Source of the DNA: Rhodosporidiobolus odoratus
Lineage: Eukaryota > Basidiomycota > Microbotryomycetes > Sporidiobolales > Sporidiobolaceae
NCBI GenBank assembly: GCA_034387635.1
Contig: JAOANU010000006.1
Location: forward strand, 620,001-684,000
Direction: 5' to 3'
DNA length: 64,000 nucleotides
Made by a program: the position numbers and the translations under genes. Position 1 is the first letter of the stretch, and every line of letters starts with the position of its first letter. Of this stretch, positions 34,644 to 64,000 are shown piece by piece. The notes below the pieces were generated by a model, which worked only from the letters and a program-made list of their open reading frames with translations, made no database searches and was not told the DNA's origin.

Positions 34644-37600
34644 CTAGTGCTCCTCATCGCTCGACAGGGAAGAACCGCTCGAGTATCCCCGACACTTTTT
34701 ATGGCTCAAAGCCACGAGGTGACTCTCCTCATCCCCTGAGGCATCAAAATTGACCTCCAACCCTTGACGAGCCCAAACTGCGTACCGCTTCTCACTACTC
34801 CGACGTCGATGCCCCATTTCAAGCGCGACCCCCTTCTCGTCGGGATCCAGTTCGGGGTCCGGTCTGAACATTGATGGGCTGTTTAGACCAAAGTACAGAA
34901 CTGGTGGCGGCGCGTCGGGCGGCTGGTCTTCAACGAGTTCGGCATCCCCAATGAAGAAGGACATGACGAAGGAAAGGGAGGCGATGCCAAGGGCCAGGTA
35001 CAGTAGGTAGCTCATAACCTCTACGTACGATGTACGCTGCCCCAGGGGAGGAGTAAGCCAGCGAGCCAAGACAGTATGCGAAATGGACGAGGCGATAGCT
35101 CACGATGCCAATGGAGGTGTCTGATGACTCGTCGTAGCTTGTTGCTTTAATGGTCGATTCGAAGACGGCATCGATGTCGGTTTTGGACAGGAGCGATTTG
35201 AGGTTTGCCGCAAGACGGTTCGGGAGGGAAAGTCGCCAGATAAGGGTTGCTAAGCTGCTGGCTCGAAACGGTCAACCCAAAGCAGGCATGCACACGAGAA
35301 GAAGCGCACGCAGTTCCGATTGCATTCTGATGGAGGCACAGGTAGATGAGCGGACGAGCACAGAGCGTGTAGGGGTGTGGAAGTTGGGCGTACCCCGATG
35401 TCACCAACCAGTTGATTCAGCGCAAGAACCATGGAGCGGTCTGCAGTATGGCGGTGTAAGTATCTGCAGTCTGCGGTGACAAGACAAAGGCATGATCGAA
35501 CCTTCGGCCTCGACAGCATGCAACGCAATTTGCGAGATCCAAACGTTCGCGATTGCTCCACCGGCACCTGGAAGAAGCGATCTCGGTGAGCGCGTCGCGC
35601 CCCCAATGTACTTCAGCACAAAGGCGAAGGGCTGTTCCTCAGTCGGAAGACACGGAAGCAGGCGAAAGAGAAGCGCACCATGTACAACTTGCGAAACCAC
35701 CAATAACCACTGCGCAAGTCTCGCTTAGCAGTCCCTCTACGAAGCAGATCAGCGCAAGAGGTATGACCTACGACCCAACCGCTACGAGCCGGGAAGGGAG
35801 ATGATCAGTTCTCGTCTACCTTCGCAAAGAGGGAAAGGCCGGCAGCATACCCAATTTTGCGCGAAGGAATCACTATGAAGTCGCACACCGTCAGTGTGTA
35901 CTGAGGACGTCGTGCTGACAGCGCTGGTGAGAGACTCACTGAGTCCGACCCCAAGCACTCGCAAGCCGTGGCCGGCGCAAATCCAGTACTGCAGTCACGA
36001 CTGTCAACCAGCTTTTCTCGGCTGCAGCTAGCGTTCGAGCGTCGGCGGAGCTGTCAAGTATTCGACTGAGTGGCGTACCATGGGGTGCTTCATCAGACCT
36101 TTCTTGGTTTCGTGAAGCTCTTTCTCTTTGCGAGCCTTGGTTTGGGCAATAACAGCCCACTTAGCGAAAAGGGCTGCAAATGGGTGCACCAACGTCATGG
36201 TGAACAGCTCGGAAAATCTGCACAATACGCTTAGCAGGAGCTCGGTCAGTGACAAAGGAGAGCTTACGAGAAGAAACCCTGGTAAAGCGGAATCCATTTG
36301 GGATACATGACCTGAATAACTGTCCAGGCACGCGTCAGCGACAGAAGCACCGAGGGGACGGGCTGCGAAGGCTTACACGAGTACTGATAAGTCAGCAAAA
36401 TGTAGAAAGAGGTAAAGTTGAGACAGGTTGCCATGAAACCAATGACGGCGCGCCGCTCGCGGTAAATGCCGAGAGGAAAGAGTGGGTGAGGTGTACGACG
36501 CTCGTGAAAGTAAAGACCGGCGAAAGCGATACAACCGCATATCACAGGGGCATAGAAAAGGGGAGAGCTCCATGCAAAGGTTCCGCCAGCAGCGAGCGTA
36601 CTGCAGGCGGTCGAAGGGGTCAGTGGTGTCCATGTCGAAGCGGTGCTGGACCTACACCGGTAGAAATGCGCCGCCAAGCCCGACGGCAAGGAGGATGAGA
36701 CCGATCGCATCCAACTTGACGAGATGAGACAGGGCTTTGTGAGTTGTCCCTTCGGAGTCGCCCTGCTGTTCAGTGCCGGCCTCGTTGTCGACCTTCTTCT
36801 TTGGCCGTCTGGCGTCGGCTTTCGTCTGCCGCCGTTCGGCGACGAACAAGCTCAGGACGAGGGGTGCAACAAAGAGAGGAGTGAGAATGCAGAACCTGCG
36901 TTTTCGGGATCAACAAGGTAGTGCATGGGCATGGGCGGTCAGACTCACATCCCCACGCCCCAGCGCCAGCCGAGCGAGGCCAAGACAGCGTTGACGATGA
37001 AGGAGCCGATCCAGCCCATCACATAGTAGGGCGCCGACATGAGGGATTGCAGGAGTTGGTTGTGGGCCAGCGCGCTTGAATACATGACAATCGCAGCCTA
37101 CATGGCGGTACGGTCAATTCTTTCGGTGTCTTGTAAGAGGTCGCTCTTGGTAGTAGGGCACGCACAGTGGGAAGAGTGTATAGTGCCGCACTGCCGAGTG
37201 ATCCGATGATGTTGCCGCCGGCATACATCGAAATCGAAGTGGACGCGGCCATGAGTGCGTCTGGACGGTAGCTCAGGGAACGAGTCAGTTCGACGCGGAG
37301 CATGACGGAGGGCGAAGTCACTCACAGCCTCCAACGTACAGCGCGACAGCGATGAGGAAGGACCAGCCTAGTCCGATCAGGGTGGATTCCTGCATGTCGG
37401 AACCGTCAGGGTGAGAATATGGACGCAAAGGTTTCCACTTACCTTCGTAGCGAGCGGCCGGAAGACGGCGCCCGCGATTGCTTGAGCCGTCAAGATGATA
37501 CCTAGAGCGCCATGGTCATCTAGGGAGGAGGTCGCGTACGTGAGGTATTGGGCCACGGTGGTCTGCGGCCATGCGAGACAGACTGAGATGAGTCACTGCG

Positions 37601-37742
37601 CGGTTTGTTGAAGGCAAAGACGGCAAGGCAAGGGAGGAGATTTGCGCGACTTGCCCCGTCTAGCGTCATAATCACAACAAAGACGAAAAGACATCCCAGA
37701 ACCAACTTCTGCATCTTGAGTGGCCTATACATATAATTGGTG
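34644..37742 (-). CDS. MFS transporter, siderophore-iron (SIT/ARN) type, left copy
   Basis: Exons read with confidence: 37742-37655, 37562-37443, 37389-37326, 37260-37166, 37097-36949, 36895-36656, 36600-36377, 36319-36268, 36217-36079, 35988-35940, 35872-35851 and the last exon 35036-34644. The blocks between about 35781 and 35104 are coding but their junctions are unsure. The 5' exon(s) upstream of 37742 were not found. Many hydrophobic segments fit a 14-TM MFS protein, with hallmark stretches SLDDHGALGIILTAQAIAG, LGWRWGVGM and YLLYLALGIASLSFVMSFF. A large positive loop (TKADARRPKKK) sits mid-protein, and the C-terminal tail is long and acidic. The family moves ferric siderophores with protons, but substrate is inferred. 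Exon sizes 120, 64, 95, 149, 224 and 52 match the right copy exactly. One intron (37654-37563) appears to be GC-AG. Confidence 0.82.
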
Positions 37743-38415
37743 CTGAAATGGATAGGTGGGTCGCTTCCTACGGCCTGCCTTAGGCTTCGTGTCGAGCCTC
37801 GGGGTGAGTGACTTCGCGGAGGACATTGTCGCGCTACGCGATCCGGCCCCGGTGGCAGCGGCTCGTGAGCATCTGGGAGGGGCCATGATGGCTTTGACTG
37901 TACGAGGGCATCAGATGCACGGTCAGCAGGGCGCGCTGCTTGAGAGGTGGAAAAACCATACCGAGAACTGATCCGACTCGCTCCCTGGCTCCTCGCGCGC
38001 GTGCCGGACACGCGAGAGCGGCGACGCCGGCGTGCCAGCTCTTGGACGAAGCAATACATGCTGATGCCGTGTCGCCATCGTTGAAAGCGCCTTGCGTTGA
38101 TGGCAGCGTAAGAGGAAAGATGATCAAAAAGATCAAATCTGATCCTGAGCTCCTCGGACCTCCCGGATCAGCGGCTCGTGCACACTTCACAGCGGGCGAT
38201 GTCGGGAGGCAGCTTCCGATGATTGCTGAGTGCGAGCTAGGCGTTCAAGCAGGGTAAATCCCGCGCACAACCGCTGGTTTCGTTTCGACTGCTCGCGCTC
38301 GTCTGCAGAACGACCTTGATCCTGTTCGAGAGGGCGAGAGCACACGCACAACATTGCATGTCTTGTACGAGGGTGAAAGTGGGAATAATAAGCACGCGTA
38401 CAAACAAAGAAAGCC
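37743..38415. other. Region between the left MFS and bZIP genes
   Basis: About 670 bp. Should contain the promoter and missing first exon(s) of the MFS gene; the right copy has three such upstream exons coding for a disordered N-terminus. I could not fix them here. Confidence 0.4.
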
Positions 38416-39754
38416 CTAAGGAGCGACCCCTCCGATTCCCAGAATTCGCTCCAAATCCTCGACCCGCTTCCTCAGTGCCTCGTTCTCCGTCTCGAGCTCT
38501 TTTACCCGAGCCTGCTTCCTCGCCCTACTCTTGCGAGCGCTGAGCGTGTTCTGCAAGCGCTTGCGCTCGACCGCGGCGACAATGTCGGCCGGGAGTTCGA
38601 CCTCGCCCTCGACGGTCAAAGGCGGAGGAACTTCCGCCTCGGCCTCCTTGCGCCGCTTTGCCAAGGCCTTCTCCGCGGCCGCCGTCTTGCGCTTGCGAGA
38701 CGTGGCAGACGGGATGACCGAATTGCGAGCCTGAATCGGAGCGTCCATGGCGAGAAGCGGCGTCGAAGTATCAGCAAAACCGGTAGGGACGGGCTTGTGG
38801 CTAGTGCGACGCGGAGGGGCCACGCAGGTGTGATCGAGGGAAGGTGTAGGCGACATGGAGCAAGAAGGAAGAGGCGGCAGGAAAGCGGTAGTCGGAGTGT
38901 TGGAGTGGAAGGAAAGGGAGGCCGAAGAATGGGGTGGAGGAAAGAAAGAGAATGTCGACGCCGTGAGCTCGGCGGAAGGACTCGGTAGCGGCAGCTCGCT
39001 GAATGTCGTGCTCGGCGCGGCGGAGGGCGGCAAGCTGAACATGGGCGAAGTAAGGAAGTCCGAAAGAGGGCTACCGGTGCCGAGACCGAGCGGCGAGTCG
39101 AGCGCAGCGTCAAAGACGAGAGGATCAGAGGAGAGAGTCGAGGATGGAACGGACGTAGACGAGGTTTCGAACAGAGGAAAAGCGAAGAGGTCGGTTGAAG
39201 CAGAGGAAAGGGAGGCTGAAAGCGGATCGAGGTCGAAGGGGAGGAAAATGTCGCCTGAAAGAGGGAGCAGCGTCAGCAAACATGGACGACGGACATGAAG
39301 AAGGCTTGTTGCGTACCAGCATCGAAGGCTTTGGCCGGAGCGGCGAAACCGGAGGGAAGCTGGGGGACATCCGGCTCCTTGACCGATGAACCGAAGAGGG
39401 AAGAAAGCTCGAGGGCGTCATCGGTGTGCAGCGAAGAGTCGAAAGTAGAAGATAGAGCATGGACAGAAGGAGCCGAAAGGGAAGTCGAGACAGAAGGCGA
39501 AAGGGAAGGGAAAGCGGGCGGCGGTCCGAGGGTCGAACCGGTGGCCGTTACAGTGTCGAGAAAGCGTAGTAGGTCGTCGGGCGAGATGGCGACGTCGGTG
39601 CTCGCCTGGTCGTGGCTTAGACCGTCAATGGCAGACGGTCCGCCTCGATCGGGCGGACGGCCGAGACGGCCTTGCTGAAACTCGACGGCTCCTGTCCGTA
39701 GGTCTCCCTGACGGCTGGGGCACTGGTGTAGGTGACTGGAGTGAACTGGGACAT
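38416..39754 (-). CDS. Gcn4-like bZIP transcription factor, left copy
   Basis: Model: 39754-39659 (MSQFTPVTYTSAPAVRETYG...), 39605-39317 and 39254-38416, 407 aa. The C-terminus is a bZIP: a basic region with N-x7-R (NTLSARKSRARKQARV) and a short three-heptad zipper (ELETENEALRKRVEDLE), closest in style to Gcn4/Cpc1. Upstream are acidic/hydrophobic Ser-Pro-rich stretches (SPDDLLRFLDTV, DDALELSSLFGSSV, GDIFLPFDLDPLS) that look like activation domains. It would bind DNA as a dimer in the nucleus. The first block and the main block are in different frames; a 53-nt (or 62-nt) intron with a weak GTCCGC or GTCTCG donor restores the frame. It is nearly identical to 59323-60661. Confidence 0.82.
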
Positions 39755-40150
39755 TGTGATGGGTGTGGGTGAGGTCGGGGCTGTTGTAGGCAACCAAGTC
39801 AATACACAGGGGGACGGGGGTAAGAAAGAAGAGGGAGAAAAGTAACTCACGTGGAGTGAGAGGAAATTGGATCGGCTTGAGGTTGTTCAAGCGGGTGCTA
39901 GCGACAGGCGCACGGCAATCAAAGGCGGTGGGCCAATCGAAGATAAGAGTGTCGACGAGGAAGTTCCGACGACGACAACGATGAGGGAAGCGGGAGAGAC
40001 GAGCTGGACGAGTCTCACGGTCAAGTAGGCTGCTCTGGCGTAGAGTCTACCTGTGCTTGCTCGAGTAAGGAAGAGAGAAGGAGAGGGACGCGTCGTTTCC
40101 GGTCTTCCGCCCGCGAATTTACTGACTCGATTTTGAGCCTGTGTTCACAT
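38416..40150. repeat. Inverted segmental repeat, left arm (bZIP gene and leader)
   Basis: Position x here pairs with 99077 minus x in the right arm. Start codons (39754/59323) and stops (38416/60661) obey this relation with no net indel. Similarity runs from the bZIP stop codon to about 40150, including both introns and the 5' leader, then fades. Confidence 0.93.
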
Positions 40151-40829
40151 TTAAGACACCTGCCGGACGTGCAGCACAAAGCGATAGCACAAAGCTTGGG
40201 GATTGGGAGATAAGTCCAGCTACGCAAAGCAACAAGAAGAAACGCGGTCCGGATTAACGATTCCGCAGCCTCACCGTCAATGGTTTCCGCACTGCAAAGT
40301 GTATCAAGGGTTCCAAGGCGAGACAGGGAGGCAGACCGCCCATAGAACGACGGATAAGCCCTAGTCTACGTTTGCTTTTCTTGAGCTTGCACGTTTGCTT
40401 TTCCTGCTGAAGACTGACTTATCCTCGTACGACCGGGTGAGATCAGGTCCGGCAAACCTCCCAGCAAGGAAGAGTAGAACAACTTTCGGTAAAGCGGACA
40501 AAAGACAAGAAGTATGTAGTGTCTGCAAGGTCAAGCCAAACGGAAAGGGGATACCAAGGAGCGTGTAGATGTAGAAGAATGGATGCGAGTAACGGTGCGA
40601 CAGCGCGAAGAATGCGAAAAGACACGAGGAAAGGGGAAAAGGAGACGGGGTTATAACGCTCAGTGACAGACAAAGGTTGGATAGGGTATCAGTAGCGGGC
40701 CTCGGCTAGCGCAAGGCGAAGTGTCGATTGGCGGTTACATGAGTGCGACAAGGAGAAAATGGGGAGGGGGAAGGGGAGAAGCGAAAACGAAGAACGAAAA
40801 GGGAACGAAATGGAGTCGACCAGCGCTGC
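40151..40829. other. Intergenic region, no gene seen
   Basis: About 680 bp between the left arm of the inverted repeat and the stop of the next minus-strand gene. No coding signal. Confidence 0.45.
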
Positions 40830-43800
40830 TCAGGCGTAGGTAGCGTAAGACTGGTGCATGGGCAGCCTCTCGTCGCCCCTCGCCGGCTGCTGCCCGTTGA
40901 GGGATTGCCCACGAGGTGGTCGCTGCTGACCCTGCTGAGGCAACACAGGCAATGCCTTCGCATCAACCACGCCCTTCCCGCCACCCTGCTGCATCTCCCT
41001 GAGCTTGTCCGGTCCCGTACCCTTGCCCTGAATCGGGGTCAGAGGCGGCGCGTTTGACTTGACCCTCGACCTACCCCCGCCGAACAAAGATGCGAACCCG
41101 CTCTTCTTGCTCAATGACGCCTTGACAGCGTTGCCCGTCGGGTCGAGGTAGATTGCCGGGTTGCCAGGCGTAAGAGGTGGGAGAGTAGACGCCGAAGATG
41201 AGAGGGAGGAGAAGGTAGTCGAACTTCCAGAAGAGCCATTTCGCGCCGAATGGGCATGGGCGTCGACGGCGGGATTAGGCGAGGCGGGGTGGGAAGAGAC
41301 GAGGGGGGAAGCGTTGATTGCTCGGATCTGCTGATGCTGAGAGGGAACGGGCGAGCGGGTCGGAGGAAGGGCGGCAGCCGCCTGTTGCGGAGGGAAGAGC
41401 CCCTGAGAAGGATGGAAGAAAGGCTCGTCTTGCTTCTTCTTCGGCTTCTCAGGTGGCCGGGCGCCGGGAGGGGGAGGTGGCGCGGATGCTGCACTAGGAG
41501 CTGATCGGGACTTGCCGCCGAAAATACCTCCACCTGAGCTCGTGCTTCCCTCCTTCCGAGGCGGTTTCTTCTTTAGCTGCGCCTCCTTCATCTGTCTCTC
41601 CTCCATACGCTTCAACATACTGTCCTTTTCCTTCTCCTTGTCTCGTACAACATCCCTTTGCCGCTGCGGCGAAGGCACCGGAGAAGCGCCTCGCAAAGTG
41701 GAATTCGATGCCGAGCTGTTCTTGTCGCTGCTGCTTCCGCTAGAATTGGCCAAGCCAGAGAACAGGGACCCGAGGCCGGAACGGCGGCGCTTGACCTGGG
41801 CGCTGCTTTGAGGCGGAGCGAGAGTTGACGGCGACACAGCAGGACGTGCAGAACCGGGAGCGGCACCGGCGGGGAGGGCGCGAGGCTGCAGCGAAGGGGG
41901 TCGCTGAGGCAGAGGAGATGCAGGAGTTGCAGCTTGTACGGGGGCAAGAATTGTCGATGATGCTGGGGGTTGAGATGGTAGGGAGTGTTGCCTCGTGGGA
42001 GGCGGGACCGCTGCCTGAGGGGAAGGGGAGGCTGAGGGCGGCGGAGAGGTGTCTGAGGTGGGGAAGGCGGTCAGTGATGGTGGTGCTGACGAAGGGAGCG
42101 GATTGTTATCGGGAACGGCCTTGGACGCGAGCCGAGGAGGAATGGCGGAAGACGTGCTTGCAGGATTTGCAGCAGGTCGTGAAGAGGTGGACGAAGAAGC
42201 GGTAGGTGCAGGCGCTGACTTATCGGATGAAGGGTTACGAGAGGAAGTCGGGCGCGTGGTAGGCGCAGGCTGTAGAAGGGGAGACAGTGGAAGTGCAGAA
42301 GGCCGGGTAGGCGACGACGGTCGTTGCCGCTGGGCGTTCGTGAACGTCGTAACCGAGTCTGGCGGGCTAGGCGGAACCGGCGACATGCTGGGTTGCACGC
42401 TGGCTTGCGGGCTCCGTTTGCTTCCTCCTGCACTTTGCGGCCGGCCCCTCTCCTCCTTACGAGGCGATGGCGGCACCCCGTTCGCCGTTCCGGGTGGAGA
42501 GGGTTTCGACGCGGCCCGAAGCTGATCTTGCGACACCCCCATGGCTCGCAGCGTCGCCTCACTCGGGAGGTTCGGGCTGGGTGGCAAGGGCGTCGACGAT
42601 CCACTCAAACCTCCCGCGCCCATGCTGACCGGACTCGATCCGGCGCTGGAAGACCTTCGACCCGACTGCATCGAAAGCTGACTGCTACTCTTGCTCGGCG
42701 CAAGATGTTGCGGGTGCGGCTCCGAAAGCGGAAGTGCAGCCTCGCTCGCCGAGCGGAACCACCCCAAGCTTTTCCGCCCGCTTCTCTTGCCGATCGCACC
42801 CGCAACTCCAGTCGCCGACATGATAGACGGGGGGCGGTGACTGCTCGTACTCGTCCGACTTCCGTTCCCGCCGAGATTGAAGCCGAGCGCGAGCGAACCG
42901 GTAGACCGATTTGTTCCTTCGTCGTAGCGAGACAGCTTGCCCTTGGCAGCAGCTTTGGCTCGTTCTTTCTCGAGGGCTTTCTGCGCCTTCAATGTGCGCT
43001 GATAAAGCTTCGAGTTGAGGTAGTCGGAGTCAGTAGGAACGCCGGGAATGGCGGGAGGCGACTGGCGAGGGGTGGACGCGAGAGACATGGTCTGCGAGGA
43101 AAAGTAAATAAGCGTCGGTGCCGCCGCATCGAGATGGCATTGGGAACGCACATCCGCATCAATTTCGCCGGACAGCTTGCTTCGCTGCGACACGCCTCTC
43201 GGCATTCCAGGCGCCAACAAGCCATTCCGAACCTGCGCCCGATTGTACCCAATCTCTCCCGCACTGCTAGCTCGCGGCTTCATCCAAGGCGCTTGCGGAC
43301 CTCCCGACTGGAGCGCCACATTGTGCTCTGACGAGCCTGGGCTCGTTGCAGGAGTCGATGCCGCTGCAGAACCGAAAGCGGACGAGGAGGCGGAAGCGGA
43401 GGCAGTGGTTGAACCGCTAGCGCCGGAGAAGCGAGGGCTCATTTGCGGTGCAGCTGTGACGCCGGGAGCAGCGCGGAACGAGTTGCGGACCGGAGAAGAG
43501 GAATGAGAAGGTGCGCCGGGAGAGGGAGGCCCTTGGGAGAAGGCGGCGAGGTCGTAAGGCGAAACGTCGGAGGTGAGGTTGATTCCGAATGGGTCGACCA
43601 TCGAAACGCCCGGAGGGAGGCGGGACAAGCGGCGCTGATCCGAGCCGAACGCTGTGCCGGGTACCACGGGTGCGGTGTCGAGAAAGCGTGAATGCTGTTC
43701 TCGGAAACGGGTCAGTGCAAATTTCCAGAGACCGCGAGGAAGACAGGCGCACCCTATTGACAGCATCGAGTGGCCTCTCCCACGAGTAAGGGTCTACGTA

Positions 43801-44582
43801 TCCGGCGGTTCCGGCCTTTGCTCCGGCGACTGCTTTATCATCCAGCAACTCCTCCTCTGCGCCGCCTCCATTCAGATCGTCGGCGGAATAGCCTTGCATG
43901 GTAATTCCGCTGCTCGGAGAAGCGGACGGGGCTTCAGTTCGAGGCTGAGTCAGGTCGACGCGAGATGTCGGACGCGCTGCTCTGGCGAGGGAGGCAAGTG
44001 AGGCGGATGAGCTCGAGGCCGAGGGCGGTCCAGAGTGGTCGCCTCGGCTTGATCGGTGCGAACTCGGCTGGGAGCGAGTGCGGGCTCTGGAGGAAAAGGG
44101 TAGGGCGGGTGCTTGAAGGGGAGAGTAGGTGTCAGGGTCTGCTGAGATGGGAGGAAGATGGCTGTCGAGGGTGTTGAGGGGTGGGAGAGTGATGCGCGGC
44201 AGCTTAGCAGGTTTGGTACGGCTCGTGGTATTGATAGGACGAGTGAAGATGGCTGAGAGGGGTCTCCGTTTGGCAGTGACGGGAGGAGGAGGTGAGGGTG
44301 CGACCGAGCCAGACGAGGCAGGGGCTGATATTGCGGTCGGGTGCAGTGATGATAGCTGACTGTCTATGTGTGTACTGGTGACAGTTGTAGATGAGCTAGG
44401 TGAGCGAAGCGCGTCCGGTGAAAAGGGAAATGCGGGGGAAGGAGACGAGGAGGAAGACAAGGTCAATCCCCAACTTCCTCTTACCCTAGATACTCCGCTA
44501 GACAGAGAAGCAGCAAGCAGCCTTACCTGCTCCCTCCGTAGCCACCACTCGTACCATTCGTCGCCGAAGTATCGCGGTCCAT
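40830..44582 (-). CDS. Large Ser/Pro-rich disordered protein, unknown function
   Basis: Four exons (44582-44527, 44395-43753, 43694-43152, 43091-40830) join in phase to 1167 aa. It is Ser/Pro-rich throughout, with many SP/TP sites and short basic patches (AKRRPLSAIFTRP, GKRSGRKSLGWF, KRRRSGLGSLF, KKSGFASLFGGGRSR). There is one helical charged stretch (VVRDKEKEKDSMLKRMEERQMKEAQLK is typical, shown in part: KEKEKDSMLKRMEERQ). The C-terminus is MHQSYATYA. The repeated R-S/G-x-G-x-L-F-type motifs and heavy SP content suggest a kinase-regulated cortical or signalling scaffold, which is only inference. No family recognised. Intron 43151-43092 is 60 nt, stop-free and frame-preserving. Confidence 0.68.
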
Positions 44583-51982: not shown

Positions 51983-52373
51983 CACCGATGACTTGAGACT
52001 TCAGGAAGAAGTAGCAGAGAAGCTAAGAGAGATGGATGAAAGCGAGGGGGAGGAAGCGGAGGACCCAAATGATACGCACGTGAAGAGACCTGAGCGGCGC
52101 GCGGATGTCTGAATAGATGGGTGGGATGTGCGGCCAAAATGAAGGTCTTGTCACGATCGGCGGCAGTATACTATGCCGAGAACAGCACCAGCTTGGAGCG
52201 GCAGAGAAAGGTCGACCTTCTCAACTGCGCAGAAAGGGCAGATTGTTGCAGGTGTTTGCAATATGCATACATACAGTTCTTCCACCAACTGCGATACTCA
52301 GAGAGACTGCTATGTATGCTTTAAGTGTCCGCCTCACCGCTGCCGCGCTGCCCGACTGCCCAGTCAGTCCAGC
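51983..52373. other. Intergenic region between tandem minus-strand genes
   Basis: About 390 bp between the start at 51982 and the pantothenate kinase stop. No gene seen. Confidence 0.4.
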
Positions 52374-54429
52374 TCAAGGTGCTCTCCCCCGTTCCCGCTG
52401 CACTGGCGGTACCTCCCCATTCGGCGTTTCCGCCTCGCCGATGTTCTTGAGCCATGCGCCAATGCCGCCGAGGTAACCTTCGTGACGCAAGAAGAGGGCA
52501 CGTTTTGTGCCTTTTGACCAGAAGCGGATGGCATAGGATAAGGTGGAGATGGTCGCGGCGTGTCCTGTTTGTTTGGCAGAGGAGTGGAATGAGCAACGAG
52601 GCGCGAGAGATGAAGCGGTGCAAGACGCGAACGTACCTCGGATGAACCCTCCACCAAAGTAGATTCGGTCGAGGTTGTGCTTTTCTGCATTCATGTAGCT
52701 GCGCAGTGGAGGAGCATGCGACAGTAAGTACGACCTTCACGGGGCAGACAGGAGGAAAGACGCACGCGATTTGCCCGATATTGTTCGAGATAGCGTAGAG
52801 CAAACTCCGACTGATGTCCTCCGCCTTGAAGCTCTTTCTCCGTTCCTCTTCCTCTTCCTCATCGCCTTCCCCTTCGGGGGCATCGCTGTGACTCTCGCCC
52901 TTCCTGAAAACCTTGCCAAACGAAGAGGCGATGGTGGAGGACTTGAGTCCGATCTTCTGGTAGTCCTGACCATAAATATCGCCGACAAGCATGTCGACCG
53001 AGGAATTGTCGCCCTTGTCGGCCAGGGCGAGCATGTCTGCAAAGCGGTACATCAGCTCGGTTGCATATTACAAGGCGTATCTGCACGTAACCGACAAATG
53101 AACTGCAAGACGTACCATCAAAGCTCCGCGCCCCCGTCAACAAGCTCAACAGTCCCCACAGCGTGCCCCCTCCCAGACTCGTCCCGCTGATTCGCTCAAA
53201 CTTGCCGTAATCGTCCACCTTGATGATGGACACTCCCGAACCGATATTGACCAGCAAGCAAGGGAATTGTGCTGGAGTCGGATTCGAGTCGAATTTGATC
53301 GAGTATTGCGGAGGATTCGGGGAGGGTCGGGGGAGCTCATCTCCCACTCCTAGACTGGAGGAGGGCGAGGCGGATGTATGCAAGGGGAAGAAAGAGTCGT
53401 CGGCGGGCGAAGGAATGGGAAGAGGCGTCGAGGAGGAACCCGGTGTACAGGGGATGTTGACCGCCGAGAGTGCCCGCTCCTGCGGGTGCGAGATAGCCTG
53501 AACCAGCTCATCCGAGTACCAGAATACCTCGTTAGGGATCTCCATCACGAAGCCCAACCCTAGAACTAGACACTCCATCTCTTCCTCCCTCCTGACTTCA
53601 ATGCCCAACTCGTCCCGCAGCCGCGCATAAAACTTGTGCGCCCCGCCTCCTGTAGCCATGATCTTGACATTTCGTTTCATCACGTCTATCGGCACGCGGT
53701 TCGAGGCAGCCGACGAAGAAATCAGGGTCTGGAGGAAAACGATGAGGGAGGAGAGGTCGGTGGTTTCGAATTTGACAAAGTTCAGTCGACCGCCAGAGGG
53801 GATGCGGGAAGCGGAAGAGCGTCGTCGAAGATGGGTTTGAAAGGGTATGTAGGCGGGTCCTCGTGCTGACGCTGAGGGAGAGCTGGAGACGGGACGTTGC
53901 TGTTGCGCGAGAGACTTGGGGCCGAGAATACCGTTGGGTACTGCCGGTGTTGGTGGAGAAGGTGTTCGACGCTGCTGTTGGGGAAGGGGCTGAGACGAGG
54001 TTGAGGCGACAGGGGAGGACGGAGCGGGAGAGTCGATGAAGGGCGAAGACGAGGGCTTGCCGTTCAGGGTTGGTCGATGCGAGTGAGGTGGAGTTCGCGT
54101 GAAGTAGACGACTTTGGCCAGCGACCCGCCAATCTGAGGGAGGCAGCAGCATGTTCAGTTTGAGAAGGTGGAACTCGGCAGACGAGGAGGGAACCCACAT
54201 CGACAGCGATATGCGAGATCATTTCCTCATGGTGTGGCAGGTAGACCTCGGGACTGGAGTGTCGAGACGAGTAGTAGGTCAGCGGCAAGACAAGACTTGA
54301 AACAAGCAGGACATGTAGGAAAGAAAGTGCGTAGACGTACTCTTCTGAGCTGCTGGAGACGATCTCTGCCCCCCGTACATCGACGAGAAGCTGTGTTCCA
54401 GCGGGCGAGGGTAGTAGTCGGTCTTCCAT
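52374..54429 (-). CDS. CAB1: Pantothenate kinase (eukaryotic type)
   Basis: Six exons (54429-54341, 54253-54199, 54133-53116, 53036-52766, 52698-52637, 52564-52374) join in phase to 561 aa. The N-terminal ATP-binding segment is split by an intron and reads [14 protein letters not shown]. Other family blocks: [96 protein letters not shown] and [20 protein letters not shown]. It phosphorylates pantothenate, the first step of coenzyme A synthesis; yeast has one essential copy (Cab1). It is larger than the yeast enzyme because of Ser/Pro-rich insertions after the N-terminal motif and after residue about 240. Confidence 0.94.
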
Positions 54430-55027
54430 GGGTGGTGGTGAGGTTATGGAACCCCGAGGCGAAAGAGAAGCCAAAGTTGCAAGGGTGGTGGGGCTCGAAC
54501 GCTCTCGAGGAAAAGGGGAACGGCTCTAGCAGGTGGTTTCGATGCGGCTGTCTCCTCTGGTGGGTCCAGTCGGGTCGAGCGAATTGAGTGTGGTACGAGA
54601 TGCGGAGATTGGGGTTGACCCGAGGCGATGAAGATGGGCGGGCGAAGGGACGGCAAGAGGCAGCGGTCGGTGTCCGCCTAGGTCGCTGTGATGATGCTAA
54701 GGTGTTGTGTCGCACGCAAGTGAGCCAGACTGAGCTGAGCAGCAACACGAAGACGCTCAGCCGGAACGTTCCCCGCACTTCCGAGCCGGAGTTGACCAAG
54801 TCTAATCAAACCTAGTCACACCTACAAACGAGAAACTGGTTGAATACATTTACCCGATAGGGGATTAGACTTGATTAGGTTTGCTTCACACTGAGCTCGA
54901 AGGCTTCCGCCCAAGACTCGCTCACATCGTTCGCCCGTGTCCATCGCTGCTGGTCCAGCTAGACAAGCGCTCAGCCGCACGCGTACACTCTTAGCAATCT
55001 TTCTAGACCACCCAGACTTCTCTAAAC
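54430..55027. promoter_or_regulatory. Divergent promoter region, pantothenate kinase / SPB1
   Basis: About 600 bp between divergent starts. A near-palindromic pair GACTTGATTAGGTTTG / CAAGTCTAATCAAACC lies around 54797-54885. No assigned site. Confidence 0.45.
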
Positions 55028-58000
55028 ATGGTACGTCCACTTGTCCTGCTCCCCCTCACCGCCACACTTTCGCTCACCTCTGTTACTTGTCGCTCGCAGG
55101 GTAAGGATCAGAAGAAGACGGGAAAGGGTATGTCGTCCACTTCTGCACTCCCCCGGGCTGTAGCTAATATCGCAACTCTGATTCAGGGCGTCTCGACAAA
55201 TGGTCCGCCTTGAACCCCTCCCTTTCAGTCCGCAACAACCTAGCTGATCGTTCTCTTTGCGCCCGATCACAGGTACCAGCTCGCCAAGTACGTCTAGCTT
55301 GCTCCCCCTCCTGTCTTACCCGCGCTGATCTCGCTTCTCTCGCAGAGAGCAAGGTTACCGTGCCCGTTCCGCCTTCAAGCTTGTCCAGCTCAACCGCAAA
55401 TATGACTTCCTCGCCAATGCCCGCTGCGTTATCGATCTGTGTGCCGCCCCCGGTGGTTGGCTGCAGGTGGCCTCCAAGCAGATGCCTCAGCAGAACAGCC
55501 TCATCATTGGTGTCGACCTCGTCCCCATCAAGCCTATCCCGCGTTGCATCACCCTGGTCGAGGATATCACCACTGAGAGCTGCAGGAGGGCGCTTAGGGC
55601 GGAAATGAAGGACTGGAAGGCGGATGTGTGCGTTTTCTCTCTCATCTCTGATTTGGGAAGGCCATGCTGAATATACATGTCCCTCACAGCGTCCTGCACG
55701 ACGGTGCGCCGAACGTCGGTTCCGCCTGGGTGCAAGACGCTTTCACCCAGGTCGAGCTCGTGCTCGCGTCCCTCAAGCTCGCCGTCGAGTTCCTCGAGAA
55801 AGGCGGAACCTTCTGTACCAAGGTTTTCCGTTCCAAGGACTACAACTCGCTTCTCTGGGTCTTCAACCAGCTTTTCACCAAGGTCGAAGCCACCAAGCCC
55901 TCCTCCTCTCGTAACGTCTCTGCCGAAATCTTCGTCACCTGCCAAGGTTTCCTCAAGCCCGACAAGATCGACCCCAAACTCCTCAACCCCAAATTTGTCT
56001 TTGCCGAGGTAGATGGACTTGTCGACGAGGACGCGCCGAAGCAGAAGACGTCGTCGACCAACCCCCTCGCCGCGCTTGAAGGCAAGACCATCTCGACCAA
56101 GGACGTCCTTACTCCGACCACCTTGAATGTCTTTGCGCCGGAGAAGAAGCGCAAGCAGAGGGAGGGGTACGAGGATGGCGACATGACGCTGTATAAGGAA
56201 TGCAGGGTGATGCAGTGGATCAAGAGCGATGACCCCATCGGTGTGCTGGGTTTGGTGACGAGGATGCGCTTTGCGGACGAGGAGGACAAGAAGTGCGCCG
56301 CTCTCTACCTCTATCAGACCTCATTAAGATACTGACGAAGGCCCTGTTTGCAGGCTATTGAAGAGTCCGCTCACCACCGACGAGATCAAGCAGTGCCTCG
56401 ACGACTTGAAGGTTCTCGGTAAGAAGGACTTCAAGATGCTGCTCAAGTACCGCTCTGCCATTCGGGAAGACGTACGTTTCCCAGCATTCTGGACGGGAGA
56501 CTTTGAGCGCTCACACCGTCTCCTAATTGCAGCTCGCCCTCGATGTCAAGATTGACGAGAAGGAAGAGTTGACGGAGAAGGTTGAGGTTGAACCGCTCAA
56601 CGAGGAGGAGCAGATTACCGCTGAGGTGCGACCCATCCCGCTCAGCTCCAAGCTCTTGCGTGCTCACGCAGTCCTCCTCGTTCGTAGCTCGATCGCCTCG
56701 CTCGGGAAGAAGGCCTCAAGAAGCGTCGTGTTCGTCGCCGCGAGAACGAAAAGAAGCAGCGCGAAGTTCAGCGTATGCAACTCAACATGGTCACCCCGAT
56801 GGATATCGGTCTCGAGCAACAGGATGGGATGACCTCGGAGATGTTCGACTTGGGCGAAGTTGAGGGAGGAAAAGTCCGCCGTGGCGTTCAGGGCGGTCTC
56901 GCCAGCGATGACGAGGCTGACTTGAGCGAGGAGGATGAATCGGCTGCGAAGACGGGGAAGGCTCGCATGCCTATGCAGATCATCCCGGACGTGGCGGAAG
57001 AAGAGGAGGACGAGGACGTCTCGGATGACGAGCGTCGTACTCGGCGCCTCGAGGAGTCGCTCGATCTACTCTACGAGTCTTACCAGCAGACTAAGCTCGA
57101 ACGCGACGCCAAGCACAAGGTGAAGGAGCAGAGGCGACGCAGGGCGGCAGCTGAAGGTGGCGAGTGGGGCGGGATCAAGGGCGACGGTTCGGAGGCCGAC
57201 AGCGACGAAGGCTCGGACGACTCGGACGTGGACGATGACCCGGCGCCTCAGCCTTCGAGCGACGAGGACTCCTCGGACGAGGAGGGCGAGGCGGTAAAGC
57301 CCGTTGCTGCACCGGCGAAGAAGCTCAAGGGCAAGAAGGCCGATGCAGCGGCTGCAGCAGCGTCGGCCAAGGCGGATGCAAAGCTGCTCACCAAGCTTGC
57401 GCCGTCAAAGGTCCTGTCTGGAGGCGCCAAGTCTCGCCAGGCCGAGATGTGGTTTGACCAACCGGCGTTCCAGGGTCTCCCTGGCGGTCTCGACGCTCTG
57501 CTGAATGGCAGCGGAACGGACGAAGAGGGCGCGGCGTCAGATGACGACATGGAAGGAGACGAGGAGGGTGTGCGAACGGTCTGGGACGAAATGGAGGACG
57601 ATGAGGCGGTGGAAGAGGACGGGAGCGATGCCAGCAGTGATGATGACTTTGCGGGAGCGAAAGAGGAATTTGTCGAAGACGAGGAGATGGAGGCGGAAGC
57701 GGACCTTGATGCGCAGGAGCAGGCGGAGATTGCCAAGGCAGAGCGGATAGCCAGTGCGTCTTGCGCTTCCCGTATTCGTCTCGAGATGCTTTTACTGACA
57801 TGGTTTCCTTCCCTCAGAACTCGGCTTGACGACCGCCGAAGCTATGACCCTCGCTCAGCAGCTCGTCAACCGCGAACGCACCAAAACCCAACTCGTCGAC
57901 CAAGGCTTCAACCGACACACTGACGTTGTTGGCGGCGACGGTCTCCCCACTTGGTTTCTCGACGACGAGCAGCGACACTTCCGTCACAACATCCCCGTAA

Positions 58001-58630
58001 CGAAGGAAGCGGTTCAGGCCATTCGCGACAAGCAGCGCGAACTCAACGCTCGACCGATCAAGAAGATCGCTGAAGCTAAGGCTCGCAAGAAGATGCGCAC
58101 CATTCGTCGCCTCGAGAAGACGAGGGCAAAGGCTCAGGGCATCAACGACGACGACGAGAACGGCTTGACGGAGAAGGAGAAGGCGGCCTCGATCGCGAAG
58201 GTCCTCGCCAAGTCGTCTGGGAAGCCGAAGAAGAAGCCCGAGAAGAAGCTTGTTGTGGCTTCTGGTGCCAACCGTGGATTGAAGGGCAGGCCCGGCGGTG
58301 TCAAGGGCAAGTACAAGGTGCGTGGCTTGATTCTTTCTCGATCACTCCCTCGACTGGGCCCGTTGAGCGGCAGCCTCAATTCGACGTATCCGTGTGGCTG
58401 ACACACACCGTATCTACTCTCTGTTCCGTCGCGCAGATGGTCGACCCTCGTCTCAAGAAGGAGGGTATGTCTGCACTTTCTCTGCCTTGTCCCCCCCCCC
58501 CCCCCCCCCCCCCCCCCCGACTCCCCTGTATACCGCCTCTTGCTGACCGCGTGCCGGTTCTCGTGTTACAGTTCGCGCTCTCAAGCGGATCCAGAAGCGC
58601 GACCGCAAGAACGGCGGCCGCAAGAAGTGA
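55028..58630 (+). CDS. SPB1: 27S pre-rRNA 2'-O-methyltransferase Spb1
   Basis: Twelve exons: 55028-55030, 55100-55127, 55187-55202, 55273-55287, 55346-55627, 55690-56292, 56354-56471, 56533-56625, 56688-57753, 57818-58317, 58437-58464, 58572-58630; 936 aa in phase. The N-terminal FtsJ domain has the K-D-K-E tetrad (Lys in RSAFKL, Asp in LHDGAP, Lys in TKVFRS, Glu in SAEIFV) and the SAM motif [10 protein letters not shown] long acidic/basic middle follows, then the SPB1 C-terminal domain ([37 protein letters not shown]) and a basic tail. In yeast it methylates G2922 of 25S rRNA in the 60S pre-ribosome in the nucleolus. The start codon stands alone as the coding part of exon 1. Exons 3 and 4 are 16 and 15 nt. 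Confidence 0.95.
58491..58518 (+). repeat. Poly-C tract in the last SPB1 intron
   Basis: A run of 28 C between donor 58465 and acceptor 58571. Confidence 0.9.
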
Positions 58631-59322
58631 GCGGTTTTTCCATTTGCGGGTTATGCGGGTCGTCCGGGTTGTCGCTTTACTTCTCTGTTCTTGTTGTGAC
58701 ATATTTGCATCGGCGACTGAGCCGCGGTGGACCTGCAGAGAGTCAGAACGGCGTGTGTTTGCGCTTCTGCCCATCTCAATTGTCGGCTTTAAGTTCCGTC
58801 GACTCTCCGCCGCGAAGTCTTTGCGAGACCGACTGTCTGCTGTACGCGCGGTGCTTATACCTCTGTCATCGAAAGCAAGGCTGCCGGGCACGCACGTCCG
58901 GCGAGCACCTTTATGTTCGAAAATGTGAACACAGGATCAAAGTCGAGTCAGTCCTTCCGCCGCCGGGCGGAAGACCGGAAACGACGCGTCCCTCTCCTTC
59001 TCTCTTCCTTACTCAAGCAAGCACAGGTAGACTCTACGCCAGAGCAGCCTACTTGACCCGGAGACTCGTCCAGCTCGTCTCTCCCGCTTCCCTCGTCGTT
59101 GTCGTCGTCGGAACTTCCTCGTCGACACTCTTATCTTCGATTGGCCCACCGCCTTTGATTGCCGTGCGCCTGTCGCTAGCACCCGCTTGAACAACCTCAA
59201 GCCGATCCAATTTCCTCTCACTCCACGTGAGTTACTTTTCTCCCTCTTCTTTCTTACCCCCGTCCCCCTGTGTATTGACTTGGTTGCCTACAACAGCCCC
59301 GACCTCACCCACACCCATCACA
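58631..59322 (+). promoter_or_regulatory. Promoter and 5' leader of the right bZIP gene
   Basis: From about 58925 it matches the leader of the left copy. It holds an upstream ORF of 47 codons (58913-59056) whose start is not conserved in the left copy, and a well-formed leader intron (GTGAGT at 59229 to CAACAG at 59296). Confidence 0.5.
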
Positions 59323-60661
59323 ATGTCCCAGTTCACTCCAGTCACCTACACCAGTGCCCCAGCCGTCAGGGAGACCTACGGACAGGAGCCGTCGAGTTTC
59401 AGCAAGGCCGTCTCGGCCGTCCGCCCGATCGAGGCGGACCGTCTGCCATTGACGGTCTAAGCCACGACCAGGCGAGCACCGACGTCGCCATCTCGCCCGA
59501 CGACCTACTACGCTTTCTCGACACTGTAACGGCCACCGGTTCGACCCTCGGACCGCCGCCCGCTTTCCCTTCCCTTTCGCCTTCTGTCTCGACTTCCCTT
59601 TCGGCTCCTTCTGTCCATGCTCTATCTTCTACTTTCGACTCTTCGCTGCACACCGATGACGCCCTCGAGCTTTCTTCCCTCTTCGGTTCATCGGTCAAGG
59701 AGCCGGATGTCCCCCAGCTTCCCTCCGGTTTCGCCGCTCCGGCCAAAGCCTTCGATGCTGGTACGCAACAAGCCTTCTTCAGGTCCGTCCTCAATGTTTG
59801 CTGACGCTGCTCCCTCTTTCAGGCGACATTTTCCTCCCCTTCGACCTCGATCCGCTTTCAGCCTCCCTTTCCTCTGCTTCAACCGACCTCTTCGCTTTTC
59901 CTCTGTTCGAACCTTCTTCTGCGTCCTTTCCGTCCTCGACTCTCCCCTCTGATCCTCTCGTCTTTGACGCTGCGCTCGACTCGCCGCTCGGTCTCGGCAA
60001 TGGCAGCTCCCTCTCGGACTTCCTTGCGTCGCCGATGTTCAGCTTGCCGCCCTCCGCCGCGCCGAGCACGACATTCAGCGAGCTGCCGCTACCGAGTCCT
60101 TCCGCCGAGCTCACGGCGTCGACGTTCTCTTTCTTCCCTCCACCCCATTCTTCGGCCTCCCTTTCCTTCCACTCCAACACTCCGACTACCGCTTTACTGC
60201 CGCCTCTTCCTTCTTGCTCGATGTTGCCTACACCTTCCCTCGATCTCACCTGCGTGGCCCCTCCGCGTCGCACTAGCCACAAGCCCGTACCCACGGGCTT
60301 CGCTAGCACCTCGACGCCTCTCCTCGCCATGGACGCTCCGATTCAGGCTCGGAACTCGGTCATCCCTTCTGCCACGTCTCGCAAGCGCAAGACGGCGGCT
60401 GCGGAGAAGGCCTTGGCAAAGCGACGCAAGGAGGCCGAGGCGGAAGCTTCTCCTCCTTTGACCGTCGAGGGCGTGGTCGAACTTCCGGCTGACATCGTCG
60501 CCGCTGTTGAACGGAAACGCTTGCAGAACACGCTCAGCGCTCGCAAGAGTAGGGCGAGGAAGCAGGCTCGGGTACAGGAGCTCGAGGCGGAGAACGAGGC
60601 GCTGAGGAAGCGGGTCGAGGACTTGGAGCGGACGCTGGGCATCGTAGGGCGTGCTGCTTAG
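58925..60661. repeat. Inverted segmental repeat, right arm
   Basis: Reverse-complement partner of 38416-40150 (coordinates sum to 99077). Similarity stops about 25 bp after the bZIP stop codon on this side. Confidence 0.93.
59323..60661 (+). CDS. Gcn4-like bZIP transcription factor, right copy
   Basis: Model: 59323-59418, 59472-59760, 59823-60661, 407 aa; same structure as the left copy with no net indel. By my reading exons 1 and 2 are identical in protein to the left copy, and all of about 20 amino-acid changes lie in the last exon, mostly near the middle and at the extreme C-terminus (GIVGRAA versus GIGGVAP). The basic region NTLSARKSRARKQARV is unchanged, and the zipper reads ELEAENEALRKRVEDLE. 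DNA target should therefore be the same as for the left copy. The frame switch between exon 1 and exon 2 is present here too, so it is not a sequencing error in one copy. Confidence 0.82.
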
Positions 60662-61164
60662 GGCTTTCTGGTCTGTACGCATTTTGTCTACCCTCCCTGC
60701 TTTCCTCCTGCAAGGCAAGTATGGTTCCTCTGTCCCGCGGGTCGGACCTTGCGCAAGGCGAAGGCTAAATTAACGAAGTTGCATCGAGGCGCGTCCGGTA
60801 AGCACCTGGCTTTTCTCCCCCGTCTAGCGGAGGGAACCTCAAGACTGAGTAGTTGATGCTGCAGCACGCAACGCAGCTATTCGAACGGTGCCAGCATAAC
60901 CGTTACTCGTAGCTTGTGCGTCCGTCCAAGCGTCCGCTCCGCGAATCGCGATGTCCGGCCTTCCTCGCCTCTTTCCGAGCCTGCCTGAACTCTGCTCCGC
61001 CTTCTTAGGTCGCCGATGCACAGGCCATATGCCGAGCACACCTAAAGGTGGCTCTCTCATGAACAGCGGGACGATCCGCGGAGGTTGTAAAAAAAGTTGC
61101 AGTCTCGCGGGCTACACCTTGCAGCTGCTGGGGTGCGACTCCTTTCCTTCTACGGTGCTCAAGT
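60662..61164. other. Region between the right bZIP and MFS genes
   Basis: About 500 bp. Presumed terminator and MFS promoter. No gene seen. Confidence 0.45.
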
Positions 61165-64000
61165 ATGGATGCGCATCGTCGTGGGGTGCATACCGTCGTA
61201 CAGAGCTCTTCGGAAGATGAGTCGTACTCGGCGCGACGAAGCAGCGAGTTAGATTCGGTAGCTTGATTTCCCTCCTTGCTCCGAGCTGCTCCACTTGACT
61301 GTTCCCTTCTGCCCTCTCGCTCGTCTCCCCTCGTTTGGGCCAAGCTGACCCCATTGCCTTGTCTAGCATGGGCACACTTTGCCCGTCTATAACGCCCAAG
61401 GTCGTGACGGCGAGACCTTCAACTTCTCTCGTCAATCGAGGCCTTCTCGCCAGACTGCGAATCTCGCACGAGGGCCGTCTCCTTCAAGTGTTGACTTCGG
61501 CGGAACCGTGCATCGAGAGTATCAGCAGCCTGCAGACAGCGGCTCGGATCGGGTACGCCCACGCTTCCTTTTCTTTCCCCGATCTCTCCCTGCGTCTTTG
61601 ACATGCCCTTCTTACACCTGGCTGCGCCGAAGTCGCTTTCTGCTTTCTGCTTTCTGCTTTCCATTCTGATGTGCTTGCGCCCTGACTTCTGCAATCGCCC
61701 GTTGCCCGTTTTTGCGCAGCCCCGCGATCGCCCTCTCTCACGCTCAAGCCAATCAACGAAGAAACGCCGTGCCAGTGTTCGCTCTGCCTCGCCCGATTCC
61801 CGCCAAGACGAGCAATCCTGGCTGAATTTGGATGGGGGCGACTCTGGCAGTGAGAGCGACTCGGTAATCTACCTTTTCCTATTCTCTTCTCCTCCAGAAG
61901 GAAGTTCGGATGGAGCCTCGGGGTCGCACCCTTCGCGCCTAGCTCTACAAGCGACGAGTACTGATACTTGTTGCTCCACTCTTTGCTATCGTACACAGCC
62001 GCAACACCCGGTTGACCCACGAACGACCTCCTCGAGGCCCCGCTCAGCTGGGGGCTCTCCCCCAGGGTCTGCGCGACGAGCTCCGTCCCCTGCACAGAGC
62101 GCAGCGCGCTCGAGTAGTGTTGGGACAAACATGATGAATGTGGTGAACGGTCCGGGAAACGTTCAACCCCAAGTTATCGTAGTCGAGGACGAGGAGCAGC
62201 ATCTGCGGCCCAAGGGTTTCAAGGCTATTCCAGACCTCTATCGGCGTCTCGACCCGACGCAGAAAAAGGTCATGTATGGTCTTTTCATCTTCGCCATCGC
62301 CACTTCGCTCGACACGGTAAGCTTCTGAATCCGTTAGCCTGCTTTCGGTTCACTTCTCCTTGCACTTACACTTGCTGTTACTGACCTCGTCCCTTGCCTA
62401 CAGGCGACAGTCAGCCAGTACATCACCTCCGCAACCTCATCTTTCGACGACCATGCCGTTCTCGGAATCGTTCTGACGGCACAAGCCATCGGGGTCGCTG
62501 TTTTTCGGCCGTTCGCAACCAAGGCATGTCAGCCTTCGTCATTCACACTGCAGATGCTTACCCCTTACTCGTGCAGGAAAGTATCGTGATCGGTCTAGGG
62601 TGGTCTTTCGTGATGTCTACCGTCCTCTACGCCGTAGGCTGTACGCCTGCTTCTTCCCTGTTTTCCAAGCGCGCTGGCAACTAACGTCTCATTACGCTCT
62701 GACAGATGCGCTCATGGCTGCGGCACCCGGCATTCCGTTATACGCCGCTGGCAACGTTCTCGGCGCTTTGGGCAGCTCAACGCTGATCACTCTTCCAGGG
62801 GTACGAGCAACTCCCTGCCGGGCGCGGTCATCCTTTGCTGATCAGGCTTGGGTCTTCACAGACAGCCGTCTATGCTTACGCCCCGGATCTCGGCGATACC
62901 AGCTTGTTGCATGCGATCTTCTCGATCCCATCCTATGCGACTGGTTGGCTTGGTTCAGCTATGGTTGATCAAGTACTCGGCTCTATCGGATGGCGATGGG
63001 GTATCGGAATGTGCGTATCCGTCTCCGACAGCGACCTCGTGTTCGTTCTTAACTTTCATTTGGGTCCCAGGTTCTGTTTCATTACGCCTCTCTTCGTACT
63101 TCCCGTCGCCACCGTCATTTTCGTCGACGAGCGGCGCAAGGAGCCTGCGCCACACCAAGCGGCAACTTCGCATCTCGAGGAAGGCCACGGGCTTTTCAGG
63201 TCTCAGGCGCGTCGCCTTCGAATTCGAGGAAGAGCGCTGGTTTCGCGAGAGGGACACTTCTCCGAAATTGACGCTATCGGCCTCCTCCTCCTGACGGCCT
63301 CGATGGGCGGTCTCTTCATTCCTTTGTTCGTCCTGCTCTGGATGTCGGTGGGTGACTCGGTACTCACCTTCTCTTTCCATAGAACGCTCGTTGGCGCTGG
63401 CGGCTTCACCTGGACGTCCCCGCAATTCTTGGTCCCTATAATCCTCGGCGCGTGTGCCGCCGTGGCCTACGCCTGGTACGAGACTAAAGCACGACACCCC
63501 CTGTTTCCCCTACTCGTCTTCACGATGCGCGAAACCATCACGTCCTTTTTGGCAAATCTACTCAACCTGGCCTCCTACACGTTGATTCTCACATATCAAT
63601 ACTCCTGTAAGTCGTTTGCCTTCCTTTTTCGAGATGGCAGGCACTGAGTAGTGTTCGCTTTGCAGTCATCCAAGTCATGTTCCCCAATTGGTCCCCTTTT
63701 GTGCAGGGTTGCTTCTCGTAAGCCAAACGTCTATGTCTCTCTCTAGCGGACCATACTGACTCGGGATCCAATCTACCAGATTCGTGCAGCTCTGTGCCAC
63801 CTATTTTGCCAACTTCGCATTCTCTTTAACCATTCAAAGGCTGGCTGCCCGTCACAACCTAGCGCAGGACGCCGGTACGCTCAAAGGATGGTTGCTCAAG
63901 CAGCCGATGGTATACTCTGCGCCCTCCGCTCGCTTTCCAACCCCGTTCTGATGTCTTCGATTTCCAGATCTTTGTTTGTTTCGGTCACGGGTTGCGAGTG
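61165..64000 (+). CDS. MFS transporter, siderophore-iron (SIT/ARN) type, right copy, 3' end off window
   Basis: Exons: 61165-61248, 61367-61552, 61720-61863, 61999-62316, 62404-62523, 62577-62640, 62706-62800, 62862-63010, 63071-63325, 63383-63606, 63666-63717, 63780-63909, 63968 onward; all in phase. A disordered Ser/Arg-rich N-terminus of about 200 residues precedes the membrane part, which starts near KKVMYGLFIFAIATSLDT. MFS/SIT segments follow (SSFDDHAVLGIVLTAQAIGV, YAAGNVLGALGSSTLITLPG, LGSIGWRWGIGM, RHPLFPLLVFTMRE). Likely proton-driven uptake of a ferric siderophore at the plasma membrane (inference from family). The intron 62524-62576 begins GC where the left copy has GT. The protein is well diverged from the left copy despite identical exon layout. 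Confidence 0.85.

Follow-up and report, generated by a model that had tools for sequence, protein, structure and literature searches.

We analyzed a 64,000-nucleotide stretch of DNA, hereafter the window (positions 620,001 to 684,000 of contig JAOANU010000006.1, GenBank assembly GCA_034387635.1), in which a gene for a putative bZIP transcription factor and a neighboring gene for an MFS transporter occur twice, in opposite orientation. The two bZIP genes are nearly identical, while the two transporter genes are old paralogues. From the sequence, we consider it highly probable (about 0.9) that the bZIP arms have been homogenized by gene conversion, and the signature is a mosaic of clean and diverged tracts with a different genealogy for each segment. 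The contig that contains the window is 1.2 Mb long and is one of 45 in the 24.8-Mb genome assembly.

Uneven divergence of two inverted gene pairs

Comparison of the window with itself by blastn returned a single long inverted repeat, 38396-40152 against 58921-60680, with 95.23% identity over 1761 columns, 84 of which differ. Each arm consists of one bZIP gene with a leader and two introns, followed by an MFS gene on the same strand. Copy A occupies 38396..40152 on the minus strand, and the spliced model places exon 1 (the leader) at 40152-39851, intron 1 at 39850-39781, exon 2 at 39780-39317, intron 2 at 39316-39255 and exon 3 at 39254-38416, with the stop codon TAG at 38416-38418. Copy B occupies 58921..60680 on the plus strand (exon 1, again the leader, 58921-59226; intron 1, 59227-59296; exon 2, 59297-59760; intron 2, 59761-59822; exon 3, 59823-60661). 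All 70 columns of intron 1 are identical in the two copies. There are 3 differences over the 62 columns of intron 2 and 14 over the 306 of the leader (4 of these being a gap), those of the leader all within its first 175 columns. The first-pass annotation, which had described the bZIP genes as nearly identical down to introns and leader, was thus correct on this point. A third bZIP copy was not found in the 24.8-Mb genome, where the DNA search hit two places and the four matches of the protein search all fell at the two loci.

The same annotation had the two pairs facing each other in opposite orientation across about 19 kb of single-copy genes. The orientation is indeed opposite, but the pairs do not face each other, since both are transcribed outward, away from the spacer. 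The spacer itself, 40153..58920 by the arm borders, measures 18,768 bp, and self-blastn found no other repeat in it within the window.

The transporter genes were modeled by spliced alignments guided by R. odoratus and other relatives, and both models are uninterrupted. MFS1 (649 amino acids, 17 introns) lies at 34644..37714 on the minus strand; its model starts at the in-frame ATG at 37714, and an exon further upstream is possible. MFS2 (708 amino acids, 17 introns) lies on the plus strand from 62131 to the window's end at 64000 and continues to about 65329. The two proteins are identical at 306 of 638 positions (48%), with 16 of 17 introns at the same alignment column and in the same phase, and in the genome the two are reciprocal best matches among the candidates scored. 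They are old paralogues, as had been proposed. Their synonymous divergence (dS) is 1.88 and their nonsynonymous divergence (dN) 0.50; a dS near 2 approaches saturation and means little more than "old". The comparison of synonymous divergence that had been set beforehand therefore came out unequal, with a dS of 0.139 for the bZIP pair against 1.88 for the MFS pair. In a seven-protein alignment, MFS2 and MFS1 were 47% identical and MFS1 was 46% and 49% identical to its Rhodotorula relatives, so that the MFS duplication may date from the origin of the genus or from before it; the deep nodes of the corresponding tree are unresolved (one support was 0.013).

A mosaic of clean and diverged tracts

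The differences between the bZIP arms are not spread evenly. A tract of 686 columns without a single difference (39296..39981 in copy A on the minus strand, 59096..59781 in copy B on the plus strand) spans 131 bp of the leader, all of intron 1, exon 2 and part of intron 2. When the 84 differences were placed at random in 5000 trials, the longest clean run had a median of 97 columns and a maximum of 242. Because uniform placement ignores constraint, the silent sites weigh more. Within the tract there were no synonymous changes at about 127 synonymous sites, where the downstream proportion of synonymous differences (pS), 0.207, predicts about 26. Since intron 1, the leader and the synonymous sites are identical in the tract, protein constraint is not the explanation. 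Counted in the long frame from AVEFQ on, the dS of 0.139 divides into 0 over the first 154 codons and 0.242 downstream of the tract (dN 0.042).

Downstream of the tract the differences are again clumped. In codons 155-403 the observed variance-to-mean ratio was reached by 42 of 20,000 shuffles, the largest number of changes in 12 codons by 197 and the longest clean run by 558. A two-state model assigned the synonymous changes mainly to codons 280-291 and 345-356, and also to codons 155-156, with 0.53 synonymous changes per codon in the patches and 0.07 elsewhere; none of 60 shuffles reached its likelihood ratio. At about 0.8 synonymous sites per codon the patch rate is about 0.66 per synonymous site, near the pS of 0.69 of the MFS pair, as expected if the diverged patches are remnants of the original duplication age. 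From A to B, 40 differences run from A/T to G/C and 27 from G/C to A/T, and these counts do not settle which copy was the donor.

Segment-specific genealogies

We then compared the window with the protein records of relatives, above all those of R. odoratus JCM 11641, so that these comparisons are at the protein level. The protein searches scored capped candidate sets of 7992, 7998 and 7998, two of them with E values up to 1e-40. The closest relatives of the bZIP protein were two R. odoratus proteins, 94% and 92% identical, which places the window in the genus Rhodosporidiobolus or in its immediate neighborhood. One, A' (JCM11641_002133), has a locus number consecutive with that of the MFS1 orthologue (JCM11641_002134, 475/623 or 76% identical to MFS1), both on contigs of 38,294 bp. 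The other, B' (JCM11641_007415), is a partial, fused prediction that begins with the C terminus of Spb1, the gene that precedes copy B in the window, and it is identical to bZIP B at 380 of 403 positions (94%). The matching neighbors, the MFS1 orthologue for A' and Spb1 for B', indicate that the loci were duplicated before the species split. The earlier suggestion that related species be checked for the pair thus found both bZIP copies and an MFS1 orthologue in R. odoratus, but no MFS2 orthologue among the candidates scored at E values up to 1e-40.

The four bZIP proteins were compared by segment over positions 29-403, the first 28 positions being left out. In exon 2 (positions 29-125) the copies within a species differed at 0/97 (A-B) and 7/97 (A'-B') positions, against 11/97 (A-A') and 15/97 (B-B') between species. 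In the tail (361-403) the order was reversed, with 3/43 (A-A') and 1/43 (B-B') against 6/43 (A-B) and 4/43 (A'-B'). The middle segment (126-360) gave 6/235 for B-B', 14/235 for A-B, 12/234 for A'-B' and 24/234 for A-A'. Paralogues are thus closer than orthologues in exon 2, not in the tail, and not clearly so over the whole length. Informative sites were those with two-against-two patterns, "single" columns and columns gapped in any of the four sequences being left out. Grouping by species is seen at 11 of these 14 sites, including 9 in exon 2, and grouping by locus at the final 3; if the sites are exchangeable, the chance of the three locus-type sites falling last is 1/364. The genealogical signal is the contrast between segments, not the average.

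Segments of one gene with different histories are a mark of gene conversion. Together with the mosaic between the arms, the segment-specific genealogies support the earlier proposal of homogenization by gene conversion. The patterns in the proteins suggest that conversion took place after the split in the lineage of the window, and probably in R. odoratus too.

Several points weigh against this reading. The figure of 1/364 treats linked sites as independent, and the old orthology of the tail rests on three sites and the genealogy on protein records. Over the whole of positions 29-403 the signal is weak (A-B 20/375, B-B' 22/375, A'-B' 23/374, A-A' 38/374). In the full-length tree A' and B' form a pair (support 0.992), and B joins this pair before A does (0.656), so that A and B are not sisters; such a shape may fit a mosaic gene. 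The excess of A-A' over A-B differences in the middle segment fits conversion near the split and also a faster A lineage. A' and B' are on different contigs, as are the two R. azoricus copies (004890, 004196), and the negative search for an MFS2 orthologue in R. odoratus, among the candidates scored, counts on the same side.

The two R. ruineniae copies (004641, 004650) are nine locus numbers apart on contigs of 73,551 bp, presumably one contig. Within R. azoricus and R. ruineniae the copies are 93% alike (396/425 and 398/427, respectively) and cluster by species with support of 1.000. These pairs would fit continued conversion of one old pair and would also fit separate duplications. The homologue list covered seven named Rhodosporidiobolus species. 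Three of them had two entries each and the other four a single one, in a database that merges proteins of more than 90% identity, so that a single entry may stand for more than one copy. The assemblies of the relatives may derive from short reads. Illumina data were used in a 2025 study of the order (PMC12093110), which mentions none of R. odoratus, R. ruineniae and R. azoricus in its main text and is not established as the source of those assemblies.

A proposed model of patchy conversion between inverted arms

We propose that an inverted duplication of an ancestral bZIP-MFS pair preceded the split from R. odoratus. The shared gene order makes it fairly likely that the bZIP and MFS genes were duplicated together. 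Repeated non-allelic gene conversion would then have passed sequence between the two bZIP genes, presumably by recombination between the inverted arms, which lie on one chromosome at a distance of about 19 kb. The events would have been patchy. The 5' part would have been overwritten recently in the window's species, the middle part was perhaps last homogenized near the species split, and the C-terminal tail would have kept the older A and B identities.

The MFS genes may have escaped conversion because their divergence and their closely spaced introns prevented recombination. The longest exact DNA match between MFS1 and MFS2 is 13 bp, against 686 bp between the bZIP genes, and the MFS model has one intron per about 108 coding bases, against bZIP exons of 464 and 839 bp. 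These figures suggest that the MFS pair lies below the similarity needed for recombination and the bZIP pair does not. The bZIP arms would have stayed similar enough, and conversion would have renewed them.

The locus is a compact natural experiment, in which two neighboring genes occur twice with their order and orientation preserved, one homogenized and the other free to diverge. Extended to several related species, it could show whether conversion is halted by loss of homology, by intron density or by selection, and whether inverted arms that convert each other cause repeated inversions in organisms other than Saccharomyces. A caution also follows, in that bZIP trees in the genus can group by species and so hide the age of the duplication.

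Possible spacer inversion and known systems

Inverted homologous segments on one chromosome can repair each other's breaks, mostly by conversion without crossover, and crossovers invert the interval between them, according to the discussion of the Saccharomyces case (PMC9731477). It was suggested that the present arms could likewise invert the DNA between them. Besides conversion, crossovers between the arms could be so frequent that both orientations of the 18.8-kb spacer occur naturally. We regard this as possible but rather unlikely. The inverted homologous arms, apparently undergoing conversion, speak for it, as does the Saccharomyces precedent, in which about 4% of conversions resolve as crossovers (cited in PMC9731477). 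On the other hand, after a crossover within the arms Spb1 should be next to an A-type tail. In R. odoratus its end borders a B-type tail instead, and the neighbor of the MFS1 orthologue has an A-type tail. Judged by the three tail sites, R. odoratus, the one relative that could be read, appears to have the same orientation as the window; no inverted form was seen, with one assembly seen per species.

A broader proposal is more doubtful still. Conversion might keep the bZIP genes alike throughout the genus Rhodosporidiobolus, with crossovers occasionally flipping the 18.8-kb block, Spb1 and the pantothenate kinase gene included, as a natural inversion polymorphism. If this were true, one regulator sequence would be common to two loci whose transporters took separate roles.

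The closest known system is the flip/flop (FF) region of Saccharomyces chromosome XIV, with YNL018C/YNL034W and YNL019C/YNL033W (PMC9731477). As described in that study, the FF region also has near-identical inverted arms around other genes (about 20-24 kb there), and its arms are homogenized within species so that paralogues are closer than orthologues. In contrast, both genes of each FF arm are homogenized, over 4.2 kb, and both orientations occur in nature. Here, the bZIP gene alone (1.76 kb) is homogenized, in patches, next to a partner MFS gene at 48% identity; no inverted form was seen among the assemblies, and the host is a basidiomycete and the gene product a putative transcription factor. 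Mammalian gene pairs are also reported to show long-lasting concerted evolution, in another lineage (PMC2720389). Among the open-licence paper titles listed, none concerned the bZIP pair. The present case is a further instance of a known process, with an instructive contrast between neighbors, rather than a new kind; it is a clear case in a little-studied group.

Duplication of the bZIP gene alone, assembly error and selection

An alternative to homogenization of an old pair is a duplication of the bZIP gene by itself, after that of the MFS pair and into the neighborhood of the second transporter, so that the high identity of the copies reflects youth. The borders of the repeat favor this, and they weigh against a joint origin of the bZIP and MFS duplicates. 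By blastn the similarity stops at the start of the leader and roughly 20 bp beyond the stop codon; the sequence further downstream gave no residual homology (362 of 1000 shuffles reached the score), and upstream there is only an 11-bp match, GCACGTCCGGC, which was reached by 0 of 1000 shuffles at 60 bp, 18 of 1000 at 150 bp and 167 of 1000 at 400 bp. However, each bZIP gene is followed on its own strand by an MFS gene, and these two MFS genes are reciprocal best matches among the candidates scored. The R. odoratus records show both copies with matching neighbors and with tails that group by locus. A single young event also gives no 686-column clean tract inside sequence with a dS of 0.24. We therefore find duplication of the bZIP gene alone improbable.

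An assembly artefact, such as a collapsed or wrongly copied arm, is a very unlikely source of the near-identity or of the clean tract. The arms were judged from assembled sequence, which leaves room for such an error, but they differ at 84 columns and have different neighbors on both sides. The protein records of R. odoratus show the same two loci with the same neighbors, and they carry other shared residues in exon 2. An artefactual second arm, the earlier worry, is thus unlikely. The weakest explanation, strong purifying selection on bZIP beside fast-evolving MFS genes without any conversion, agrees with the faster evolution of the MFS proteins (76% for MFS1 and its orthologue, 94% for B and B') but is scarcely credible, given that the tract shows no change in intron 1, in the inner leader or at synonymous sites and that the copies group by species in exon 2.

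The bZIP and MFS proteins

The bZIP assignment of copy B is borderline by Pfam (bZIP_1, 27.2 bits against a curated cut-off of 27.6, E value 4.4e-6), and many close homologues carry PF00170 or PF07716 in a precomputed list. For the C-terminal 101 residues, the best match among solved structures was GCN4 (2dgc, E value 0.0057), a weak match aligned across the basic region; an engineered FOSW zipper was nearly equal (E value 0.0064). The 381-amino-acid query had no match among solved structures at 0.001. The likeness to Gcn4-type bZIP activators is this weak alignment of the basic region, and the function here is putative. The named homologues with matches stronger than an E value of 1e-9 were from red yeasts and other members of what we take to be their class, Microbotryomycetes.

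The start of the bZIP protein may be read in more than one way. The long frame has no ATG before exon 3, its first in-frame ATG being at spliced position 982 in copy B. A well-placed ATG at 39754 (A) and 59323 (B) opens a different frame of 45 codons, which precedes and overlaps the long frame. The R. odoratus A' protein is annotated as if an intron (53 bp as read in the window) joined the 45-codon frame to the long frame. The B' record, like the long frame, shows no methionine in the part before exon 3. Codon usage leans, with small scores, to the 45-codon frame as the true N terminus, but the donor of such an intron would be poor. The sequence would thus fit either an intron with a weak donor, an overlapping upstream frame (possibly regulatory, as in Gcn4-type genes) or a non-AUG start. 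Since the whole question lies within the identical tract, the conversion result is unaffected.

At the very edge of both arms stands an ATG immediately followed by TGA (58923 in B, 40150 in A), with GCACGTCCGGC just upstream and GAGTCA just downstream, common to both copies. We take GAGTCA to be the core of a Gcn4/AP-1 site.

The two transporters matched Pfam MFS_1 at 60.6 and 37.5 bits, against a cut-off of 33.4, and their NCBIfam matches were far below the respective cut-offs. MFS2, the one searched against solved structures, had no match at E values up to 1. Each MFS model contains a GC-AG intron, at different positions (37654-37563, intron 1 of MFS1; 62524-62576, intron 2 of MFS2).

The spacer and the rest of the window

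Pfam matches in the spacer include a cation efflux domain (45883-46517, minus strand), an SH3 domain (48079-48393, plus strand), an aldo/keto reductase at or below the cut-off (about 49.2-49.8 kb, plus strand) and a Fumble/pantothenate kinase within 52324-54154 (minus strand). The Spb1 rRNA methyltransferase gene lies at 55356..58630 on the plus strand (FtsJ, DUF3381 and Spb1_C), where the first coordinate is that of the first domain match and not the gene start. Its stop codon is 290 bp from the start of arm B, and Spb1 is the synteny anchor of copy B. The spacer also holds long frames without a Pfam match.

Outside the arms, an LTR (long terminal repeat) retrotransposon lies at 1033-6325, where two identical 228-bp direct repeats surround a single frame of 1614 amino acids that matches aspartyl protease, reverse transcriptase, RNase H, integrase and chromodomain. 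We take it to be a Gypsy-like chromovirus. Its LTR has at least 18 further matches elsewhere in the genome, 75-92% identical and many of them partial. The 5 bp flanking the repeats on either side, as reported, do not match each other. At 10486-10622, a 33-bp direct repeat with frames carrying GRKE and SFLP repeats on the two strands suggests a short tandem array.

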